60,587 nt of DNA, from assembly GCA_947169885.1 (NCBI GenBank), contig CAMVRM010000015.1:1-60587 (forward strand), read 5' to 3'. Source of the DNA: an uncultured Ruminococcus sp. (GTDB taxonomy: Bacteria > Bacillota > Clostridia > Oscillospirales > Ruminococcaceae). The translations under genes were made by a program, and so were the position numbers. The notes beneath the pieces are model-generated. The model did no database searches. It worked only from the letters and a program-made list of their open reading frames with translations, and had not been told where the DNA came from. This document shows positions 29,858 through 47,805 of the stretch, one piece after another (position 1 is the stretch's first letter; every line of letters begins with the position of its first letter).

Positions 29858-29895
29858 CGGAGAGCATCGGGTTTTCGATACTCTCCGTTATTTTT
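29858..29895. terminator. Terminator between GtrA and gyrA
   Basis: CGGAGAG-ATCG and CGAT-CTCTCCG form a stem (29858-29887) followed by TTATTTTT. It lies between convergent genes and could act on both. Confidence 0.85.
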
Positions 29896-32476
29896 ATTCG
29901 TCAATATTTTCTGATGCAGAATCCTGTTCTGCCTTTGCGTCTTCGGCGGCAAGCTTTGCGGCTTCCTCCTCGGAAACGTCCTCAGCAGTACTGTCATCTA
30001 CCTTGGAAATTTCGGCAGAATCGTCATGCTCGGCACGTGTGAACGCCACGACCTTTGCATCTTCGGTCAGTTTCATCAGGCGAACTCCCCTTGCGTAACG
30101 TCCCATTGTGCGCACGTCAGAGGCACGCAGGCGGATTATTACGCCGTTCGAGGAGATCATGATAATATCGTCTTCCTCGTCTATGACCTTTATTCCGCAC
30201 ACAAAATCGCCCTTGCAGTTATAGTTCTTCATGCCGTAGCCGCCTCTGCGCTGTATGCGGTAGCTGTCCAGCGGACACTTGCGTCCTAAGCCGCTGTCGG
30301 TAACGGTCAGGACAGATGCGCCCTCACGAACTCTTGCCATTGAAACAACATGGTCGCCCTCACGAAGCTTTATAGCCTTTACGCCGTGAGCGCTTCGGGA
30401 CATTTTGCGCATATCCGTTTCTTCGATGCGGATCGCATAACCGTTTCGTGTTGCAACGATAAGCTGGTTGCTTCCAGCCGTCATGCGAACGCCCATTATC
30501 TCGTCACCATCGTCAAGACCTATCGCAATAAGTCCCTGTTTGCGGACGTTCTTGTACTGGTCAAGGGCTGTACGCTTTATCTTGCCGTTCTTCGTGACGA
30601 TAACGATATTCTTCTCCGGGTCGAAGTCGGCGGTCTTTATCATCGCCGAGATCTTTTCGCCCTCACGAAGCTGAAGCACATTGTTTATGTGGATACCCTT
30701 TGAAGCTTTTGAACCTTCTGGTATCTCGTAGCATTTGAGCTTATACATAACGCCGAGATTCGAGATAAACAGCAGGTTATCGTGAGAGGAGCAGATGTTC
30801 ATTTCCTCAACGAAATCGTCCTCACGCTGTTTCATGCCCGAAACGCCTCTGCCGCCACGGTTCTGAGCCTTGTAGGTGGACACGGGCATACGCTTTATGT
30901 AGCCGCTGTTGGTGTAAGTCACCACATTTTCCTCAACGGGGATAAGATCCTCAACATCAACTTCGCCGCTTACATTCTCGATGCGTGTTCTGCGCTTATC
31001 GCCGAATTTTTCCTGTATCAGTTCGACTTCCTCGATCATGATCTTCAGAATGCGGCTGTGGTTTGCAAGAATATCTTCAAGGTCAGCGATCTTTAAGCGA
31101 AGTTCATTGAGTTCGTCAAATATCTTCTGCTGTTCAAGACCTGTAAGCCTTGCAAGGGTCATGTTTGCGATGTGGTCAGCCTGAATATCCGACAGACCGA
31201 AGCGTGTACACAGGCGCTGTTTAGCTTCGGGGACGTTCTTCGAGGTCTTCATTATCTCGATAACTTCATCAATGTTGTCGAGTGCGATCTTCAAGCCATC
31301 TAAGATGTGTTCACGCTCTTTTGCTTTTTTCAGGTCAAACTTGGTGCGGCGGGTTATTACCTCGACCTGGAAGTCGATGTAATGCTCGAGCATCTGTTTG
31401 AGGGTGAGAGTTTTCGGCACGCCGTCAACAAGTGCTAGCATGATAACGCCCACGGTGTCCTGAAGCTGAGTGAAGTTATACAGCTTGTTCAGGATAAGCT
31501 GAGGGATAGCGTCCTTTTTCAGCTCGATAACTATTCTGATACCCTCTTTGAGGTTCGACTCGTCACGCAGGTCATGTATACCCTCGATACGCTTGTCCTT
31601 GTGGAGCTGGGCTATCGACTCGATAAGCTTGCGCTTGTTGACCATATAGGGTATCTCGTGGATTATTATGCACTGTCTGCCCTTTATCTCGGTGATCTCG
31701 GCATCTCCACGGAGGGTGAGTTTTCCTCTGCCTGTGCCGTAAGCCGCACGAATGCCGCTCCTGCCCATGATTATGCCGCCTGTCGGGAAATCAGGTCCAT
31801 GTATGCACTGCATAAGTTCGTCAAGGGTGCAGTCGGGGTTCTCGACTATAAGCTTCATGGCATCTATCACCTCGCCTAAGTTGTGGGGAGGGATATTTGT
31901 TGCCATGCCGACTGCGATACCGTTTGAGCCGTTCACCAGCAGGTGAGGGAAACGTGATGGCAGAACAACAGGCTCTTGCAGACGATCGTCATAGTTCGGC
32001 TGGAAGTCAACTGTGTCCTTGTTTATGTCCGAGAGCATATGGAGCGACATTTTCGCCATTTTAGCCTCGGTATAACGGTAAGCCGCCGCAGGGTCGCCGT
32101 CAACTGTACCGAAGTTTCCCTGACCGTCTACCATGGGGTAGCGCAGAGAGAAAGACTGAGCCATACGGACGAGCGCATCATAAACGGAAGCATCGCCGTG
32201 AGGGTGATATTTACCGAGTACCGAACCTACGGTATCGGCGCATTTACGGTAGGGCTTATCGGGATAAAGACCGTTCTCATACATCGTATAGAGTATACGG
32301 CGGTGAACAGGCTTCAAGCCGTCTCTTACATCGGGGAGCGCACGGGAGCAGATGACCGACATGGAGTATTGAAGAAAAGACTCTTTCATCATGCGTTCAA
32401 TGTCAACGTCAATGATGTTCGTGTTATCGGTATAGCCTGCCAGTGCAGCTTCGTTTTCGTTTATTTCGTTACTCAA
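29894..32476 (-). CDS. gyrA: DNA gyrase subunit A
   Basis: GyrA (860 residues) cuts and passes DNA to introduce negative supercoils with GyrB. The catalytic Tyr is in [11 protein letters not shown] (about residue 128). The quinolone region is around [14 protein letters not shown]. In the C-terminal wheel the GyrA-box reads QNRGGRG (usual QRRGGRG/KG), so position 2 is Asn. A second partial copy reads QRRGGYG. The start is TTG, preceded by AAGGTGTGAGATC; no ATG fits better. The acidic C-terminal tail (about 820-860) is usual in this family. The quinolone target Ser position reads Ser in DASVYD. Confidence 0.96.
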
Positions 32477-32526: not shown

Positions 32527-33618
32527 TTATTCCTGTTCCTCTGTTTCATTGTTCTGAACCTTGTGCCGCCTTATCTTCGGCAGTTCGTGACGTTTTCGGG
32601 TGAAAAATTCTATATAATCATCGCCCAGAATATCCATAAGATGAGCTGTGAACACATCGTTCATGCGGTCTGAAAAGCTGGATTTAGGGATAGTATAGAC
32701 CATGCTCCCCCTGAATATCAGCACATACAGATCGTCATAGTCGATAACTTTAAGGTCGATGTCCTCAAAGCGTATCATGACAGGCGGATAAGTATAGAGC
32801 GTATCACCCGACAGCTCAGAGCATTTTATTATCATGCGTGAGCTGAAAAACGATAGTTTGTAGCTGTCATTTCTGACACGTTCTGCGGCTCTGACCGCTT
32901 CTTTTTTTGCGCCTGCGGAAGCCAGCCATTTGATAACTATGATAAGTATGCAAAGGAAAAACATCACATACAGCATCGGCGTTCTCGGGCTGAAAAGTAT
33001 CGAGATAAGAAACAGCACCGAAAGGGTCGCAAACAGAAGTGAAAGCTTCATATTGCCGCGTCTGACAAATTCGTTGTGATAGAGCATATAGCCCTCTGCC
33101 GCCTGCTCGGGTGTCAGTGCGTATTCAGCCTCGAAAATAAGCTTATCTTTTTTGACATCGGCAGTATAACGGGGGCGCTTGTCGAAAAGTGCAGGTTCTT
33201 CCTCGTCATAATCGTCATCATCATCGTCATAAACAGCGGTATCATCGGTCTGCACCTGAGTATGACTTCCGAAAAACATATCTTTCAGAACATCGGGCTT
33301 GAACATCTCGGCGTTCTTTATCTTTTTCGCAAATGCAGATGCACGGAAGGATCTCTTACGCTTTGTGACGGTCATCCCCACATCGCCATTTTCGGGCTGA
33401 ACGCTCTCCTGCTCGGGCGGCGGAGACGTATCTTCGGGCTGTCCGCTTTTTTTTGAGCTTTCATAGTTAGCTTCCGCTTCTGCGATTATGCTTGAAAAAA
33501 GGTCATCGACAGGCTGTTTTGGTCTGTTTCTCGAACTGTTTATTATCGGTTCGGAGTTGAGCCATTCGGAATTTTCAAGCTCGTTATCAAAATCTGTACT
33601 CAAATAACTGTTCCTCAC
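32527..33618 (-). CDS. YcxB-like membrane protein
   Basis: The 363-residue protein has a long disordered acidic N-terminus (about 1-150, including runs of Asp). A YcxB-like domain follows: [20 protein letters not shown], two adjacent helices (about 190-235) and a PH-like C-terminal part ending [20 protein letters not shown]. YcxB proteins have no known activity. The ATG overlaps the gyrB stop by four bases, so it is co-translated between gyrB and gyrA. That position is not typical of Bacillus but conserved function is possible. Confidence 0.75.
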
Positions 33619-35615
33619 ACATCAAGCTCGGTGACATACTGAGCGTTCTTTTCGATAAATACACGTCTCGGCTCAACTTTGTCGCCCATGAGGATCGTGA
33701 AAGCTTCATCGGCTTTTTGAGCGTCCTCGATATTGATCTTTATCATGGTCCGCTTTGTTGGGTCAAGAGTTGTTTCACGAAGCTGTTCGGGGTTCATCTC
33801 ACCAAGACCTTTGTAGCGCTGTATGTCGACTTTCAAGCCGCCATCGCCTGCAAGTTCTGCGGCGTATTTATCACGTTCTTCCTCGGTGAAAGCGTAACGC
33901 ACCTGCTTTCCTCTCCAAACCTTGAAAAGAGGCGGCTGGGCGCAGTAAACGTGACCTTCCTCGATAAGAGGGCGCATATAGCGGAAGAAGAAAGTCAGCA
34001 GCAGTGTGCGGATATGAGAACCGTCCACATCGGCATCTGCCATGATTATGACTTTGCCGTAGCGAAGTTTGTTGATGTCGAAGTCCTCGCCGATAGACGT
34101 TCCCAGCGCCGTCACGACAGGCATAAGCTTGTCATTGCCGTAAACCTTGTCGATGCGGACTTTTTCAACGTTGAGCATCTTGCCCCAGAGGGGGAGGATC
34201 GCCTGAAATTTTCTGTCTCTTCCCTCTTTTGCAGAGCCGCCTGCCGAATCTCCCTCGACTATGAACAGCTCGGTAAAGCGGTTGTCACGTTCGGAGCAGT
34301 CGGCAAGTTTGCCCGGGAGTGACGAAGATTCAAGTGCAGACTTGCGCTTTCTTGCAAGGTCACGGGCATTCTTTGCGGCTTCACGAGCTTTTTGCGCCTG
34401 CTGAGACTTCTCGAAGATAAGGTTTGCAGTCTCGGGGTGTTCGTCAAGGAAGTCCACGAGCTTTGCGGTAACAAGTTTCTCGACAAACGGACGCACTTCG
34501 GGATTGCCCAAACGTCCTTTTGTCTGGCCCTCGAACTCACAGTTGGTCAGTTTTACCGACACGATAGCCGTAAGACCCTCACGAACATCATCGCCTGTGA
34601 GCTTTTCGTTATCTTTCAGCTTACCGAACTTGTGACCATACTCATTTATCGCCTTTGTAAGAGCTGATTTGAAGCCGTTTTCGTGAGTACCGCCATCAGG
34701 AGTGTGGATATTATTTGCAAAGGAAAGCACAAAATCGGTATAGTCCTTGTTATATTGGAGAGCTATCTCTGCGAACATATCGTTTTCCTTGCCCTGGATA
34801 TGGATTATCTCGGGGAAAAGCGGCTCGGAAGCCTTTGATTTGTGGATATGCTCGACAAACTCCCTTATGCCGCCCTCATAACAGAGAGTTTCGCCCTGAA
34901 TATTCTCGGGATCACGCTTATCCGAGAAAACGATTTTCAGACCGGCGTTCAGGAAAGCCTGTTCTCTGAGACGGCGCAGAAGTGTTTCGTAATCATATTC
35001 GGTGGTCTCGGTGAAGATCTGACTGTCAGCCTTGAACTTGACGGTCGTGCCCGTCTTGTCGGTAGTGCCGATCACTTTCAGTTCCTCGCTGTAATGACCA
35101 CGGTCAAAGTGCTGGAAGTGGACTTTTTCTCCGTCATAAACGGTTATTTCAAGCCATTCAGACAGGGCGTTAACAACTGACGCACCAACGCCGTGCAGAC
35201 CTCCTGCCATTTTATAACCGCCGCCGCCGAACTTTCCGCCAGCGTGAAGGACTGTATAAACAACAGTCGCTGCGGAGATCTTTTCCTTGGGGTGGATACC
35301 TGTGGGTATTCCACGTCCGTTATCCGTTACCATGATTATGTTATCGGGGAGAATGTCGACAGTTATGACGGTGCAGTAGCCTGCAAGAGCTTCGTCAATG
35401 GCGTTATCCACGATCTCATAGACAAGATGATGCAGACCTCTCGGACCTGTCGAGCCGATATACATACCCGGGCGGATACGGACAGCTTCAAGACCTTCAA
35501 GGACCTGTATCTGATCTGCGCCGTAGTCGGTATTTTCATCGACTTTGGAGATGTCACGGGACTCCAGCTCCTCTTGTTCCTCGGTCATTACTTCCTGTAC
35601 TAATTCTTCACTCAT
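33615..35615 (-). CDS. gyrB: DNA gyrase subunit B
   Basis: GyrB (666 residues from ATG 35615) is the ATPase subunit. The GHKL motifs are [23 protein letters not shown] and [15 protein letters not shown] (about 50-130). The transducer is in the middle. The TOPRIM domain has [22 protein letters not shown] (about 445-466) and [16 protein letters not shown]. The start has GGAGGT nine bases upstream. An ATG at 35657 lacks that site and adds an unrelated peptide. It lies downstream of a 206-base AT-rich gap after remB, probably with its own promoter. Confidence 0.96.
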
Positions 35616-35821
35616 GTAAATTTTACCTCCGTTCTGATCCCGAAAAATGGGGGTCATATTGAGTTTTCTTATGTATAAAAAACTAAAAATAGAAAATTAA
35701 AAAGATATTAAAGTTTTCGCCGAATCCAAAAGATCATTTGCATAAATTGTAAATCAATTACAGAGTTATTTTATGCAATATACATATTTTTTTGTGATTT
35801 AAGAGCTGTGGCTCATAAAAA

Positions 35822-36093: not shown

Positions 36094-37212
36094 TTATTCC
36101 TCCGTTACGCTCCCCTGCTCCACACGAAACAGTTTGCCGTTATAATGTCTGACAAGTTCCTCGTCACAGCAGGTTATCATAACCTGCATTCCGCTGATCT
36201 TGTTCATTATGAAACTGCGGCGTGAAACGTCAAGCTCGCTCATAACATCATCAAGGAGTATGCAGGGAGGATCGTCAGTCTCTTCTGTAAGGATATACGC
36301 CTGAGAAAGCTTCATTATCAGGGCCGCCGAGCGGTGCTGACCCTGTGATGCGTAATCTTTCATATACATACCGTTTATACTGCACCGAAGATCGTCACGG
36401 TGAACGCCCCTCAAAGTGAAGCCTGCCCTTATGTCATCGGCACGGTTTTTCTGAAGTCTGTCAAGATATTCTGCGGCAAGATCGTTTTTGTAGTCAACTC
36501 TGCCTTCAAGTTCAGAAAATATCGTTGAATGGTAATCTATGGTAAGCTGTTCATTGCCCGAAGATATTTCAGAGTAAAGAGCAGCGGCAGTTTTTTGCAG
36601 TTTTTTGCAGTAATTGAAGCGGAGGACCGAGATATAAGCGCCCATTTGTGCAAGCTGAGCGTCCCAGATGTCGAGCATAGAGTCATCAGACCTGCCCGAT
36701 GCGATATTTTTCAGCTGGTTATTGCGTTGGTCCAAAATGCGGCGGTACTTATCGGTGACAGCTCTGTAAGAAGTTTTGAGCTGTGAGACCGACAGATCGC
36801 AGAAACTGCGGCGTATCTCGGGAGAGCCTTTTGAGAGTTCCAAGTCTTCGGGCGTGAAGATAACGCATTCGAGCGCTCCGAAAAGCCCCGACTGAGAACG
36901 CAGGCTCACACCATTAAGTGTAACTTTTTTGGTACGCAGTTCCTGACGTTTTACGGCGCAGGTTATCTGCTGGGTGCGTCTTTTGTCTTCAAAAGAGAGC
37001 GAAAGAGAGTAACCATCGGCATCTTTGCCGATCAGTTCCTTATCCTTAGCGCCTCTGAAAGAGCGTTCGCCCGAACAGAGCCACAATGCTTCTAAAATAT
37101 TAGTTTTACCCTGAGCGTTTTTTCCGCAGAGGATATTAAGTTCGGGATGAAAGGCTATATCGACATCGTGAAGATTGCGAAAGCCCTCAGCCAAGAAGTG
37201 TTTAAGCTTCAT
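36094..37212 (-). CDS. recF: DNA replication and repair protein RecF
   Basis: RecF (372 residues) loads RecA at gaps with RecO and RecR. The ABC-type ATPase has [16 protein letters not shown] (Walker A, about 31-46), the signature STDKEL-like region replaced here by [19 protein letters not shown] (about 305-323), and Walker [12 protein letters not shown] (about 330-340). It overlaps yaaA by four bases. Length is normal. Confidence 0.95.
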
Positions 37213-37445: not shown

Positions 37446-38555
37446 TCATTCCTTGGGAAGTCTTACGGGGAGGACCAAATAAAGATAATTATCGCCCTCC
37501 ATAGGAACTATTTTAAGCGGCTGAAGAGGTCCGTTCAGCTGGAGTTTGATCTTTTCATCGGGTATAACTTTTAAGGGATCTAAGAAAAAGCGGCATTTGA
37601 AGCCTATCTCAATAGCGCTTCCTGTCATTGCAACGCCAAGTTCGTCCTGAACTTTTCCGATCGAGCCTGTCTGACATTTGAGTTTTACGGTGCTGTCTTC
37701 AAAACGGCAGCGGACAGGGCTTGGATTTTTTTCGTTTATAAGGAGCATACAGCGGTCAAGGGAGTTTATCAGCTGAGTGCGCTCAGCTATGACCTCTGTG
37801 GCGCAGGTAGTGGGGATAGATGACTGATAGGGGTGGAACTCGCCCTCTAAAAGTCTGGAATTCACGACATAATTGCCTATCTCGAAGATTATATGTTTTT
37901 TGGTAAGGAACATACTGCAAACATCTTCAGCGTTATCTGAGAGGAGCTTTGCAACTTCGTCAAGATTCTTTGCAGGCACTATGAATTTGATATTATCACT
38001 GTAAGCGATAGGTTCAGTGCGGACAGCAAGTCTGAAACCGTCTATTGCGGCAACAGTCAGGGTGTTATCCTGAATAGTGAAAAGTTCGCCTTTGAGTATA
38101 GGCTTTATATCAAGCTGAGATGCTGCGAACTTTGTCTGCATTATCATGCTTTTCAGGACGGGCTGAGAGATGTTTATCGGCGTGAAGTCTTCTTTTGAGG
38201 GAAGTTCGGGATAATCATCGGCGGGAACTGAGTTCATATTATATGTGGCATTTCCGCCCTCGATAGTGATCATATTGTTACTGTCGATCTCAACAGAGAT
38301 ATTTCCGTCAGGCATTTTTCTTACCATATCGGAAAAAATGCGTGCATTGACGATAAAGCTGCCTGAATCGGTCGACTGGACTTCAAAGACAGTTCTTATG
38401 CCTATTTCAAGGTCATAGCCTGTTAATTCCAAAAGGCTGTCGGAAAGAGAAAACTTCACGCCTTCCAAAGCAGAGATAGCTGAACGATCGGCAACTGCCT
38501 TTGATACGTTTATCAATGCTTCGGATAGGGTATTTCTGTCACAGTTGAATCTCAT
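37446..38555 (-). CDS. dnaN: DNA polymerase III beta clamp
   Basis: The 369-residue sliding clamp confers processivity on Pol III. Three similar domains are visible, with NALINVSKAVADRSAISALEGVKFSL at the start and LPVRLPKE at the end (usual end LPVR-like). I chose ATG 38555 (MRFNCDRNTLSEAL) because GGAG precedes it and the family starts this way. The longer frame to 38585 adds MSNTDRRSII-like sequence without a site. The dnaA-dnaN gap of 493 bases upstream contains the likely origin. Confidence 0.95.
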   Translation of the reverse strand: MRFNCDRNTLSEALINVSKAVADRSAISALEGVKFSLSDSLLELTGYDLEIGIRTVFEVQSTDSGSFIVNARIFSDMVRKMPDGNISVEIDSNNMITIEGGNATYNMNSVPADDYPELPSKEDFTPINISQPVLKSMIMQTKFAASQLDIKPILKGELFTIQDNTLTVAAIDGFRLAVRTEPIAYSDNIKFIVPAKNLDEVAKLLSDNAEDVCSMFLTKKHIIFEIGNYVVNSRLLEGEFHPYQSSIPTTCATEVIAERTQLINSLDRCMLLINEKNPSPVRCRFEDSTVKLKCQTGSIGKVQDELGVAMTGSAIEIGFKCRFFLDPLKVIPDEKIKLQLNGPLQPLKIVPMEGDNYLYLVLPVRLPKE

Positions 38556-39048
38556 GATAATACTCCTTCGATCTGTGTTTGACAATAATTAAATGTTATT
38601 TTTTCTTCTTAAAAAGCAAAGTTTAAAACTAACAATGCGTAGGATAAAAAAATGAGGGATTTGCGCTGTTTAAGAAAGATAAGATAACTATATTTTTTAT
38701 TAATATTAATATAGGTGTTGAAAACTCTATAAAGTGGAGGAAAGCCCGATAAACACAGGATTTTTTATCAACAAACTTTTAGGGGTGTTTCAACAGGTTT
38801 CAAATGGCAAAAATTGGACCTGAGGTGATTGTTGGTAATGTTGAGAAATTGTTTGTTGATTGTTTGGAAAATAGTTTAAAATTCGGGGGTAGTTTGAAAA
38901 CTATGTGTTTAAAGGGTTGAAAGAATGCTGACGCAGAATTGGTCGAAAACTGCGTTCAGCGCACATCTGCAAGGAAAAACTCATGCAGTAAAAAGTTGAC
39001 AACTTGTTTAAAACTGTTGAAAACTATGTTGAAAGTGTTGAAAACTAC
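38556..39048. other. oriC: Candidate oriC between dnaA and dnaN
   Basis: No gene is present. TGTTGAAAA occurs exactly at 38716-38724, 39015-39023 and 39036-39044. TGTTGAAAG is at 39027-39035 and TGTTGAGAA at 38839-38847. On the other strand TTATCAACA is at 38765-38773 and GTTTCAACA at 38787-38795. I saw no perfect TTATCCACA in this gap. An AT-rich stretch (about 38690-38713, with TATTTTTTATTAATATTAATATA) next to the boxes could be the unwinding element. By hand sampling the plus strand is C-rich in left genes and G-rich from dnaN onward, which places the switch here. Confidence 0.72.
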
Positions 39049-40413
39049 TCAGACTTCCTTTAAATTCTTCATTATATCGTTGACAGTTTCTTTGAGATCG
39101 GGGTTTGAATTGATCTTATCAACGATATCCTGATAGTGGATAGTCATAGTCGAGTGGTTCTTATTTAATATGTTGCCTATCTGGATATAGGTAAGTCCTT
39201 TGAGTTCTTTAAGGATATAGATAGTCACTTTTCTTGCCAGCGAGATATTTGCACGGCGGTTTGAGGAAAGAATATCATCGGGGGTTATGCTGAATGTATT
39301 AGCGACCTCAGTGATGATACGTTCGCTGGTTATCTCAGCAGGGTGAGTTTCGATCATTATTTCCTTAACGACCCTTTGTGCCATTGCGATAGAGGGCGGT
39401 TCATTAGTATAATAAGTAAGACCCTTGATCTTATTGACAGTTCCCTCAAGCTGACGGATATTTGTCTTGATCTTTTCGGCGATTATCCTTGCGACCTTAT
39501 CGGAGAGCTGGAGATCGAGCAGTTCAGCCTTTGATTTAACGATAGCCATTCTTGTTTCAAAGTCAGGCGGCTGTATGTCGACCTGCATTCCGAGCATGAA
39601 GCGTGATCTCATACGGTTTTCAAGGCGTGAGATCTGGCTTGGGGCGGTATCTGATGTCAGAACTATCTGTTTTCCCGAGTTATAGAGGTCATTGAAGGTA
39701 TGGAAAAACTCCTCCTGAACGGCATCTTTATTAATAATGAACTGGATGTCGTCTATAAGAAGGTAATCTGCGCTGCGGTATTTATTATGGAACTCGTTAG
39801 TTGTGCGGTCGGAGAGAGCCTGAACGAATTCGTTAGTGAAATTTTCGGTAGTAGTGTAGATAAGGTTCATTTCGGGGTGATTATTCTTTATGTAAGACTC
39901 GATAGCCTTCATAAGGTGAGTTTTTCCTAGGCCCGAATCTCCATAGATAAACAGTGGGTTGAACACCTGCTGGTCGTCCTCAGCCTGACCGTCGGAGTCT
40001 GCTTTTTTTGCGACTGCCATACAGCAGGCGAGAGCAAACTCATTAGACTTACCTTTAATGAAGTTATCGAAGGTAAGCTTATCCTGTTTTATAGACGGGG
40101 TATGAGCTTCAGCGGGTGGTTCATCGGTAGCCACGGGAGTCGCAGGGGCTGATGTCTCCATTGTTTTAACGAGAAGTTTTACTTCAACGGGGAAGCCGAA
40201 AACCTCCTCGAACGCATTCTGGATGTCATTTCCGTAGATGTCGAGGGTCGTTTTCTTATAGAACTCGTCTTTTGTCAGCAGATATGCGGTATTATTTTCA
40301 AATTTGAATGGTTCGAGAACCATCAGCCAGTTCTTGAAGCCAACATCGCTGATATTCGGCAGATTATGCAGATATTTCAAGACATTTTCAAACAATATGC
40401 TGAATGAATCCAT
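39049..40413 (-). CDS. dnaA: Chromosomal replication initiator DnaA
   Basis: DnaA (454 residues) binds boxes at oriC and opens DNA. Domain I is at 1-90, with a short variable domain II. The AAA+ domain has GDSGLGKTHLM (Walker A, about 153-163) and LLIDDIQF (Walker B), and domain IV runs from about 360 to 454. In domain IV the family signature GGRDHTTV is changed to NKNHSTM, as part of IGNILNKNHSTMTIHYQDI. The usual Asp (E. coli D433) is Asn. The preceding R/K-rich helix reads SSNRRANISLARKV, where most relatives have KKRTKSVAFPRQ. This is discussed in findings. The promoter is at 40477-40505. Confidence 0.96.
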   Translation of the reverse strand: MDSFSILFENVLKYLHNLPNISDVGFKNWLMVLEPFKFENNTAYLLTKDEFYKKTTLDIYGNDIQNAFEEVFGFPVEVKLLVKTMETSAPATPVATDEPPAEAHTPSIKQDKLTFDNFIKGKSNEFALACCMAVAKKADSDGQAEDDQQVFNPLFIYGDSGLGKTHLMKAIESYIKNNHPEMNLIYTTTENFTNEFVQALSDRTTNEFHNKYRSADYLLIDDIQFIINKDAVQEEFFHTFNDLYNSGKQIVLTSDTAPSQISRLENRMRSRFMLGMQVDIQPPDFETRMAIVKSKAELLDLQLSDKVARIIAEKIKTNIRQLEGTVNKIKGLTYYTNEPPSIAMAQRVVKEIMIETHPAEITSERIITEVANTFSITPDDILSSNRRANISLARKVTIYILKELKGLTYIQIGNILNKNHSTMTIHYQDIVDKINSNPDLKETVNDIMKNLKEV

Positions 40414-45664: not shown

Positions 45665-46037
45665 TGGTGGAGGCGAGGGGAGTCGAACCCCTGTCCGAAA
45701 ACCCATTCACACGAATTTCTACGAGTGTAGCTTATTATTTTGGCACAGTCTCCGAACTAAGCCGATTCCCTCCCAGAGCCGCAAACAAGCACGCAGCAAA
45801 GGTCGGTAGACTGTCATACATCGTCAGGTCACAGTCATCTCCTGCCGACGTTCACCACTAGTCGACGCCTTTACCCGAGCCGTGGTACTCTCAGGCAAGA
45901 CGAGCGCTGACTTAAGCAGCAGCTAAAGCAAAATTATCGTTGTCGTCTAATTTTAAAACGTGCGCCTTTTTACGGGATTTTCGCTTCCCGACTCGCTTAT
46001 CATGCTTCAAGATCCCCGTCGAAACCTTTACGCCCCC
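45665..46037 (-). ncRNA. ssrA: Transfer-messenger RNA (tmRNA)
   Basis: The 373-nt minus-strand RNA rescues stalled ribosomes with SmpB. The 5' end is GGGGGCGTAAAGGTTTCGAC, and the 3' end has the tRNA-like T-arm GGTTCGACTCCCC and encoded CCA. The 7-bp acceptor stem (GGGGGCG with CGCCTCC, one G-U) forms. The tag reading frame is GAC AAC GAT AAT TTT GCT TTA GCT GCT GCT TAA, giving (A)DNDNFALAAA, by alignment to E. coli. SmpB is encoded upstream in the same direction, which is a usual neighbour. The 5' end is preceded by heptamer repeats instead of a clear -35. Confidence 0.96.
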
Positions 46038-46128: not shown

Positions 46129-46668
46129 TTACAAAACATACACTTTATCGATCTCAATTGCGTATCCCCCGTCATTCAGCTTAAAGGCATGGAAAACAAC
46201 AAACGCTGTTCCCTTATCGCATTTAACATCAAAGCCTATGTCATAAATTTTATCAGGATATTCCGCTGATTCAACAGAATCACTCTGACTAGCCTTTATA
46301 ATATCCGAAGTCTCTGTGCTTACTTTGCAGTTTGTGACCCAATCCTCTGAGCGTATCATTTCCCAGTATTCACTACGGCTTGTTTCGATGTTAAATTCTT
46401 TATTTACTTCATTAAAACGCATTTCATCTAATGCTGCGCTTTCATCGTTCTCCTGAATGCAGGCTGTGATCTTCAAAGCTCTTGCTATAAGTTGTCTTAT
46501 CTCTGTTTCGGAGAGTTTTTTGGTAACATTATCGGCATAGTTAACAGGATAATCCTCTGCGGCGGCACTCATCTGCAATTCCGTATCAGGCTTGCTTTCG
46601 ACTGAGCCGCAGCCCGAAAGCGTAATTATGCAGGCAAAAATCACTGTAAAAATAACCAATCTTTTCAT
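46129..46668 (-). CDS. Lipoprotein of unknown function
   Basis: The 179-residue protein begins with a lipoprotein signal ([20 protein letters not shown], Cys 20), and the mature chain is acidic. No domain is recognised. The second half has a pattern ([29 protein letters not shown]) that suggests a small alpha/beta extracellular domain. The start overlaps smpB by four bases. Its position between smpB and ssrA is probably incidental. Confidence 0.75.
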
Positions 46669-47138
46669 CTGTTGAAATCCTTCATCGCCCTGTCGATGTC
46701 ACGCTGAGCAGATTTTTTCGCCATGTCGTCACGCTTGTCATAGAGTTTTTTGCCCTTGCAGAGCCCCATGCACAGCTTGACCCTGCTGCCTTTGAAATAG
46801 AGCGACAGCGGAATGAGCGTCAGACCCTCCTGCTGGATCTTGCCAAACAGTCGGTTTATCTCCTGCTTGTGGAGCAGAAGACGGCGTTCACGGCGTGGGT
46901 CACGGTTGAAGATGTTGCCCTTTTCGTAAGGGCTGATGTGCATACCTTTTACCCAGCACTCGCCGTTTTCTATCGCACACCATGCGTCTTTAAGGTTGAC
47001 ACTGCCTGTGCGTATGCCTTTGACCTCCGTGCCGCAGAGTTCGATGCCGCATTCAAACTTTTCAAGCACGAAGTAATCGTGATAAGCCTTGCGGTTATCG
47101 GCTATTGTCTTGAAATTTTCAGACTTTTTTTCTGCCAC
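46665..47138 (-). CDS. smpB: SsrA-binding protein SmpB
   Basis: SmpB (157 residues) binds tmRNA and brings it to stalled ribosomes. Family motifs are [32 protein letters not shown] (about 10-41), [36 protein letters not shown] and [26 protein letters not shown] near the end. I chose GTG 47138, because AAGAGGTGATC lies 4-13 bases upstream and is complementary to the 16S rRNA end. The GTG at 47147 is within that site. The consensus promoter is at 47174-47202. Confidence 0.95.
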
Positions 47139-47173
47139 GAAGATCACCTCTTTTATTCTTTGGGTAGTATATT

Positions 47174-47202: not shown

Positions 47203-47556
47203 TAGGTCCGCCGACTTATTTACGTAAAATTTACAAAATTATATTTGACTATCATTAGTTATTTTTATAAGAAGCGTTCATATTTTATTAAATTATACAT
47301 CTGCATATTTTCGGCAGAAATGGCAATAATTAGAATATTCAAGGCAAAAAAAATGGAACGGTGTTGAAAAGTCTGAGCGTTGAAAACTAAACAATACAAG
47401 CAAGTTTTAAACAGTTTCAACATAGTTTTCAACATTTTAAACGTTGAAAACCTGAGTTTTCAAGTGTTTTCAACAATTTGTTGAGAAAAAGGGGCGTTTT
47501 TGCCTGTATTTGGAAAGAATTTTGATAATACAAAAAGGTAAGGAGAATGTCGAAAA
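47203..47556. other. Second DnaA-box-like cluster region
   Basis: No gene is present. TGTTGAAAA-type sites lie between 47362 and 47487. Exact ones are TGTTGAAAA 47362-47370 (plus) and TTTTCAACA at 47426-47434 and 47467-47475 (minus). Near ones are CGTTGAAAA 47378-47386 and 47442-47450, GTTTCAACA 47414-47422, and TGTTGAGAA 47479-47487. The flank at 47225-47305 is very AT-rich. It is the point where transcription switches from all-minus to mixed, but GC skew does not clearly change here. It could be a DnaA-titrating or regulating locus. Confidence 0.65.
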
Positions 47557-47805
47557 ATGTTGAAGGGTATAAATAAACAAATAATCGAGATAAAATGTAC
47601 TAATAATGAATATTTTGAAAAAGCTCTGTTATTTGTGCGGAGTTCGAGCTGTGACGTTTCTTATGACAGATTGATGCGGTGTGCGGAAGATTTCACCTGT
47701 TCACTCAACGGCGAACGTCCTCCGAAAAGCAGGCTTTGGCTCGCTCTTCCGGTTGTAGTCGTAACGGCGGCTGTGCTTTCGGTCGTGATACTGGTGAAAT
47801 GCTGA
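47557..47805 (+). CDS. Small C-tail-anchored membrane protein
   Basis: The 82-residue protein has a polar N-terminal region (about 1-58, with YFEKALLFVR) and one hydrophobic helix at the C-terminus (about 60-81, LALPVVVVTAAVLSVVILV). It resembles small conserved hypothetical proteins with MLKGxNKQIIEI starts that I recall from Clostridia. No function is known. GGTAAGGAGAA precedes the ATG, and the gene is the first plus-strand gene after the box cluster. Confidence 0.6.
   Translation: MLKGINKQIIEIKCTNNEYFEKALLFVRSSSCDVSYDRLMRCAEDFTCSLNGERPPKSRLWLALPVVVVTAAVLSVVILVKC

Follow-up and report, generated by a model that had tools for sequence, protein, structure and literature searches.

Putative DnaA boxes and a conserved three-box module near dnaA, a small gene and trkH in Ruminococcus and related genomes

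The dnaA-dnaN gap and its boxes

The window, i.e. the whole stretch of 60,587 nucleotides analyzed, comes from an uncultured Ruminococcus sp., and the named contigs nearest to it are of Ruminococcus species. Five genes lie on its minus strand in the order dnaA-dnaN-recF-gyrB-gyrA (39049-40413, 37446-38555, 36094-37212, 33615-35657 and 29894-32476, respectively); the last three were named recF, gyrB and gyrA from their sequences. The 493 bp gap between dnaA and the adjoining dnaN ORF (38556-39048) is the probable oriC, or a part of it; GC skew is negative up to about 27 kb and positive beyond 38 kb.

Eight sites at no more than one mismatch from TTTTCAACA are present in the gap. Three are exact, all on the minus strand (38716-38724, 39015 and 39036). 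The others feature a single mismatch: TTATCAACA (38765-38773, plus strand), GTTTCAACA (38787-38795, plus), TTCTCAACA (38839-38847, minus), TTTTAAACA (39005-39013, minus), which flanks the module described below, and CTTTCAACA, at 39027. In 2000 dinucleotide shuffles of the gap, exact copies average 0.08, with a maximum of 2, and none reaches 3; sites with up to one mismatch average 1.10, with a maximum of 5, and none reaches 8. In the rest of the window, outside both this cluster and the second one reported below, 574 overlapping stretches of 493 bp contain three sites each at most. The classical DnaA box consensus, TTWTNCACA, does not occur in 38556-39048. A DnaA-box cluster is defined, by the criterion quoted in PMC7561715, as at least three boxes at an average distance below 100 bp: the gap contains one such cluster, of eight sites in 329 bp, when one mismatch to TTTTCAACA is allowed, and none when the classical consensus is used.

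These counts agree with a preliminary description of the locus, which listed the three exact boxes, at least seven copies or near copies in the gap, and no classical box. The same description held that an equal frequency of the nonamer throughout the genome would speak against its reading: the sites are, instead, clustered. In the whole genome, TTTTCAACA is found 120 times, and its reversed word 39 times. A basal unwinding system (BUS) would consist of a box adjoining at least three NAN trios; a candidate DnaA-trio or unwinding stretch, TTAATATTAATATAGG (38700-38715, plus strand), abuts the box at 38716, and trio-like 9-mers are enriched in related dnaA-dnaN gaps. Judging from sequence, this organism very probably uses the nonamers of the TTTTCAACA type as its DnaA boxes.

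DnaA and its DNA-binding domain

No full-length DnaA other than the dnaA product (454 aa) was found in the genome; in a profile search this product scores 205.5 bits against PF00308 (cut-off 23) and 57.0 bits against PF08299 (cut-off 31.5). A second DnaA was considered as binder of the boxes, and rejected: the genome has only one other PF08299 match, an ORF of 110 aa surrounded by phage-like genes. Its product (L070 2960-3376, G000:C17) features a helix-turn-helix similar to that of DnaA domain IV, with the signature HRHHSTV.

Domain IV, the DNA-binding helix-turn-helix domain, is encoded by 39052-39336, on the minus strand, and includes the stretches SSNRRANISLARK and IGNILNKNHSTMTIHYQD. Its predicted model has a mean pLDDT of 96.9; the best PDB match is 3pvp, DnaA of M. 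tuberculosis, with a TM score of 0.92. The canonical GRDH[ST]T signature is absent: where E. coli has GRDHTTV, KNHSTM is found, with one residue missing. The codons for KNHSTMT lie at 39142-39162 (minus strand, counted from the ORF), and their Asn, residue 419, is equivalent to D433 of E. coli; alignment with solved DnaAs supports the signature NKNHSTM, with Asn at this position, as the preliminary description had reported. In the numbering of E. coli, used hereafter, positions 398-400 align with N, R and R (R399 being kept), position 430 is missing, and the stretch 433-440 is N H S T M T I H. Between IG and [DN]H, the turn that precedes the recognition helix is thus made of five residues, not six, a feature overlooked in that description. 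Ruminococcus bicirculans 80/3 (locus L093) has the same KNHSTM; L128 is one of the short-turn relatives with D433.

A three-box module

Right after the stop codon of dnaA, the sequence TGTTGAAAACTATGTTGAAAGTGTTGAAA (39015-39043, plus strand) forms a module of three boxes, TGTKGAAAnnnnTGTKGAAAnTGTKnAAA, with box offsets of 12 and 9 bp. The pattern was defined on this genome before being searched elsewhere. Five exact copies of TGTTGAAANNNNTGTTGAAANTGTTNAAA are present in the genome: 39015-39043, 47406-47434 and, on contig C1, at 84475, 84765 and 85057.

The module is conserved. With up to two mismatches, it was found in all of the 13 genus genomes searched, the reversed control in none; when T or G is accepted at position 6, it was found, again with up to two mismatches, in 187 of the 197 family genomes (reversed control: 0). 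Elsewhere in the phylum, 15 out of 148 genomes contain it, 13 of them at two mismatches, the reversed control being present in 4. When up to three mismatches are tolerated, 91 out of 233 dnaA-dnaN gaps from the family contain it, and 1 out of 72 others (reversed: 0 out of 305). Three further copies in the genus lie on G596:C33, G598:C148 and G599:C152. Module-like triplets with classical boxes, TGTGGATAA...TGTGGAAA...TGTG, were seen in two other families of the phylum (G214, G256, G293 and G322; G230, G303 and G332). They are alike within each of the two families, and the spacing may predate the box change.

In the open-licence literature, no paper was found combining DnaA with TGTTGAAAA or "DnaA box" with TTTTCAACA, nor one bringing together "DnaA box" and at least two of Ruminococcus, Oscillospir and oriC, nor one combining the module neighbours.

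A second cluster, upstream of a small gene

A second box cluster, overlooked in the preliminary description, lies at 47362-47556: it is as dense as that of the gap, with 3 exact and 6 near boxes, a count reached by none of 2000 shuffles. It includes the second module copy (47406-47434, minus strand), about 122-151 bp upstream of a gene, 7 kb from dnaA, coding for a protein of 82 aa which is unannotated and has a hydrophobic stretch at its C-terminus (47557-47805, plus strand, stop codon included). The protein belongs to a family, about 85 aa long, with a conserved N-terminus, MIKGINKQIIEIKCTN.EYFEKALLFVR, followed by the C-terminal hydrophobic stretch, and present in 117 of the 197 family genomes. 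Three members searched against Pfam and NCBIfam gave no match above cut-off (best E 0.13), and the single-sequence fold of the 82-aa protein, with a mean pLDDT of 57, is too low for use.

The divergent neighbour of the cluster is a gene on the minus strand (46665-47147), presumably smpB. As a target of the cluster it was discarded: the other module loci retrieved from the genus show no smpB match, whereas they do contain the small gene. A tmRNA (45665-46037, minus strand) lies about 0.6 kb from smpB.

Eight genus loci were fetched which feature a single module, with neither dnaA nor trkH: in seven, the module is upstream of the small ORF also present in the window at 47557-47805; in the eighth (L361), near a contig end, none was seen. 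Seventy of the 117 small genes were examined, namely the 30 with the highest scores and 40 of the 43 ranking after them, the three left out (G195, G086 and G196) being near contig ends. The module, at up to three mismatches, is present within 350 bp upstream in 58 of the 70, and in none within the 350 bp after the start. All 58 have a copy in the same orientation, four of them also one in the opposite orientation; the far edge of the module lies at a median of 163 bp from the start codon.

Multiple modules beside trkH

Two or three module copies, 228-293 bp apart, are found in 11 of the 13 genus genomes. In ten of these 11, a TrkH gene (PF02386) starts beside them; in G143, the remaining one, the stretch retrieved contains an amidohydrolase, which often neighbours multiple modules elsewhere. 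In the genome under study, a box cluster outside oriC spans L069 1928-2695, with three modules. Along L069 1976-2760 (G000:C1:84475-85259) these are located upstream of trkH, with spacings of 290 and 292 bp. At their starts, the units resemble diverged repeats: 152 of 283 aligned bases are equal between units 1 and 2, shuffled controls ranging from 101/232 to 115/279.

Position 6 of the boxes among relatives

PF08299 was found in 189 of the 197 family genomes (eight without match); nine, with weak matches, were left out. Gaps were sought in 180 family-genome loci, 80 named contigs and the window: 246 were recognized in these 261 records, 15 being dropped for lack of a recognizable dnaN downstream. 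Identical pairs of DnaA end and gap were merged (from 245 to 232); named contigs and genomes overlap otherwise. Boxes are indicated as A6 (TWTCAACA) or C6 (TWTCCACA), and gaps are classified according to turn length, residue 433 and residue 438 of the neighbouring DnaA.

In a de novo k-mer count on a first set, TTTTCAACA was the top 9-mer both in 59 short-turn N433 gaps (105 copies vs 2.75 expected, in 53 of the 59) and in 21 short-turn D433 gaps (44 vs 1.2 expected, in 18 of the 21); in 27 ordinary D433 gaps, TTTTCCACA (24 copies) and TTTTCAACA (23) were both enriched, together with the trio-like CTACTACTA. In the full set, gaps beside short-turn DnaAs with T438 feature A6:C6 counts of 184:4 with N433 (58 gaps) and of 62:0 with D433 (20 gaps). 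T438 goes with A6-only gaps also in six cases with a long turn (18:0 together; 11:0 in 3 gaps with D433, 7:0 in 3 gaps with N433). Short-turn DnaAs with other residues at 438 show 8:0 with N433 (3 gaps) and 21:9 with D433 (5 gaps). Long-turn D433 DnaAs with neither T438 nor S438 show 263:204 (128 gaps), those with S438 16:6 (5 gaps); three N433 DnaAs with a long turn and a residue other than T or S at 438 contribute a single A6 box (1:0). In other lineages of the phylum the ratio is 20:83 (48 gaps of 50 loci). A6 boxes are thus common throughout the family, and the short-turn T438 clade is marked by the near loss of C6.

In gap modules, all 63 boxes of the short-turn N433 T438 rows without L079 are A-type at position 6, and so are all 36 of the short-turn D433 T438 rows; L079 (N433, T438) has T once and G twice, so that the short-turn T438 total is 100 out of 102. 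In long-turn D433 rows without T438, position 6 is T in 89 boxes, G in 66 and C in 1. Upstream of the small genes, A6:C6 is 50:0 in 14 genomes of the short-turn clade (35:0 with N433, 15:0 with D433) and 93:61 in 56 other genomes; box counts are not independent, and the Fisher value for this comparison is only descriptive.

Genome-wide, the median ratio of TTWTCCACA to its reversed word is 1.04 in 19 clade genomes and 2.15 in 30 long-turn genomes, while that of TTTTCAACA is 3.50 and 2.56, respectively. The 19 are Ruminococcus-type, independently shortened turns being excluded (e.g. the genomes of L176, L205, L219, L260 and L262); the 30 are G001-G033 less three without a PF08299 match. Single genomes deviate from the TTWTCCACA median, with 99 vs 63 in the genome under study, 111 vs 23 in G049 and 138 vs 62 in G103.

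Some gaps do not conform to the general trend. Four of the 78 short-turn T438 gaps contain one C6 box each (L056, L061, L087 and L145), and L242 (N433, T438, long turn) has one TTWTNCACA. L327, with ordinary contact residues (RDHSTVLHS), shows nonetheless 5:0. Outside the family, a pair of N433 DnaAs (L323 and L324) shows 2:0 each, and their D433 sister from the same genus (L325) 3:0. L327 and L325 show that boxes can be A6-only without these DnaA changes.

Twelve, 14 and 12 exact TTTTCAACA boxes are present in the gaps of L184, L263 and L059, beside Asp433 DnaAs. DnaAs with His433 (RHHSTV; L032, L253, L303 and L308) have 1:5 in all, too few to be read.

Which DnaA change accompanies the box change

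The preliminary description proposed that protein and box had changed together, with Asp433 to Asn as the change involved. The former proposal holds broadly, short-turn T438 DnaAs being found almost only with A6 boxes; the latter is not supported, and the residue named is most likely wrong. In its strict form, this proposal would have Asn read an adenine at position 6 where Asp read a cytosine. The contact is chemically a natural one, and N433 rows are indeed nearly A6-only (200:4 over 68 rows). Yet the same boxes are used by D433 relatives with T438, in 20 gaps, in all 36 module boxes and upstream of the small gene in five genomes; the D433 sister of the N433 pair outside the family is A-only as well, and A6 boxes are common beside long-turn D433 DnaAs. 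Asn433 was consequently set aside as the cause, and a re-targeting of DnaA by this residue appears quite improbable.

A re-targeting by deletion of one residue in the turn, which marks the clade without C6 boxes, is less credible still, and was also set aside. L260 and L262, with a five-residue turn and D433, show 0:3 each, while L176 (4:2) and L205 (2:1), with the same turn length, have mixed boxes; moreover, in alignment the turn is equally short in DnaA of M. tuberculosis, the closest solved structure, whose box is given as YWRTCCACA in PMC5043019.

We also sought a single reader residue by ranking domain IV columns: 439, 422, 418, 465 and 438 come on top, 433 lower. Since the top-ranked columns covary by descent, the ranking does not single out any one residue. 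Contacts with DNA are reported for 438 and 439, among other positions, in PMC5043019, and for 439 also in PMC7561715. On a tree of DnaA domains I-III, with 251 rows for which both traits are known, each trait has four to five supported independent contrasts. On average, the box state goes with N433-or-T438 in 2.8 out of 5 and against it in 0.0 (median p 0.25), a few random pairings including one contrast against. For N433, T438 or either, on average no contrast points the wrong way and none of the tests is significant, the comparison being underpowered after correction for relatedness. The loss of C6 accompanies broader changes throughout the recognition helix (433-440); it is not accounted for by the short turn alone, and D433N is not needed for it.

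Two further explanations concern the boxes themselves. Specificity may have remained unchanged, C6 being still preferred and A6 boxes representing tolerated weaker sites, made common by drift. B. subtilis DnaA does bind some sites with three mismatches to the consensus (PMC4447404), and L327 is A6-only with ordinary contact residues. But C6 is nearly gone from module and small-gene upstream regions only in the remodelled clade, which is also the only one where the genome-wide C6 excess is lost, base composition being controlled by the reversed word: we regard this explanation as unlikely, if the least so of those considered. Alternatively, the nonamers could belong to another DNA-binding protein, acting near dnaA by chance; the module is indeed found beyond the origin, at trkH and at the small gene. 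This is hardly compatible with the gradation of the module boxes of relatives from TTTTCAACA to TTTTCCACA to TTATCCACA, the classical DnaA box (e.g. in G062), and with the location of the gap clusters, at the expected place of oriC and near trio-like words; we consider it very improbable.

Proposed role of the boxes

DnaA and the DnaA box are textbook examples of conservation. The explanation we favor, and hold to be probable on comparative grounds, is that TTTTCAACA-type nonamers act as DnaA boxes, that C6 has nearly disappeared in a short-turn T438 clade with a remodelled 433-440 helix, D433N being optional, and that a strict module of these boxes serves oriC, the small gene and trkH. Boxes of the family have either C or A at position 6 (TTTTCMACA), those of other phylum lineages mostly C; in the short-turn T438 clade, with its remodelled helix, the C6 form is nearly lost and A6 is left. 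What the sequences themselves establish are the clustering, the module and its conservation, the A6/C6 difference and the fact that this difference does not depend on residue 433. DnaA would bind the boxes through domain IV, and those in the gap may nucleate the filament which opens the origin, as described for the B. subtilis BUS (PMC8287927). Bound about 150 bp upstream, DnaA could modulate transcription of the small gene, as reported for B. subtilis sda (PMC4447404). The modules at trkH may be involved in regulation or in DnaA titration, as described for DnaA-box clusters (PMC5295017).

The module upstream of the small gene and, in the genus, of trkH is most likely a DnaA-responsive element. 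A further step is speculative, and we consider it less likely than not: with its three-box element kept fixed, the family may be passing from C6 boxes, by way of a mixed C/A stage, to A6 boxes, and the element could act as a DnaA-responsive switch for an undescribed family of small, membrane-anchored proteins reporting or restraining replication initiation.

As mostly-C, mixed and A-only lineages coexist, with comparable sites, the change of an essential protein-site pair becomes testable. Such origins may escape origin finders that use TTATCCACA by default. Through the module, a gene family without a name in Pfam or NCBIfam comes into view as possibly controlled by DnaA, and module and small gene are a more novel lead than the box shift.

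Comparison with known systems

Domain IV shares with that of E. coli DnaA (1J1V) the fold (TM score 0.91), R399 and H434, but has N for D433, S for T435, T for L438 and I for H439, and lacks 430. The box, like TTATCCACA of E. coli, is a nonamer with a T-rich start and an ACA end, but has T at position 3 and A at position 6. In Epsilonproteobacteria, where boxes contain TTCAC, changes in helix 5 similarly go with a changed box core; according to PMC5043019, T is there invariant at position 5 and the dyad 433-434 is retained, while here it is position 6 that changes, to A.

The B. subtilis BUS, as described in PMC8287927 and PMC10721633, is made of two tandem boxes and DnaA-trios. Head-to-tail boxes, no more than 3 bp apart and beside dnaA, are common to both systems; here, in contrast, the boxes are three, at offsets of 12 and 9 bp, and are repeated at non-origin loci, the contact with trios being only a candidate one. 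Dense boxes outside oriC also recall the DnaA-box clusters of B. subtilis and datA of E. coli, as described in PMC5295017; the arrangement differs in the strict 12/9 module, of which two to three copies, in most cases separated by 280-293 bp, precede trkH, where titration is putative. Finally, boxes upstream of a small gene are found at sda, a DnaA-activated gene of B. subtilis (PMC4447404 and PMC5295017): the small protein described here, in contrast, matches no family above cut-off and features a C-terminal hydrophobic stretch, and its control by DnaA is putative.
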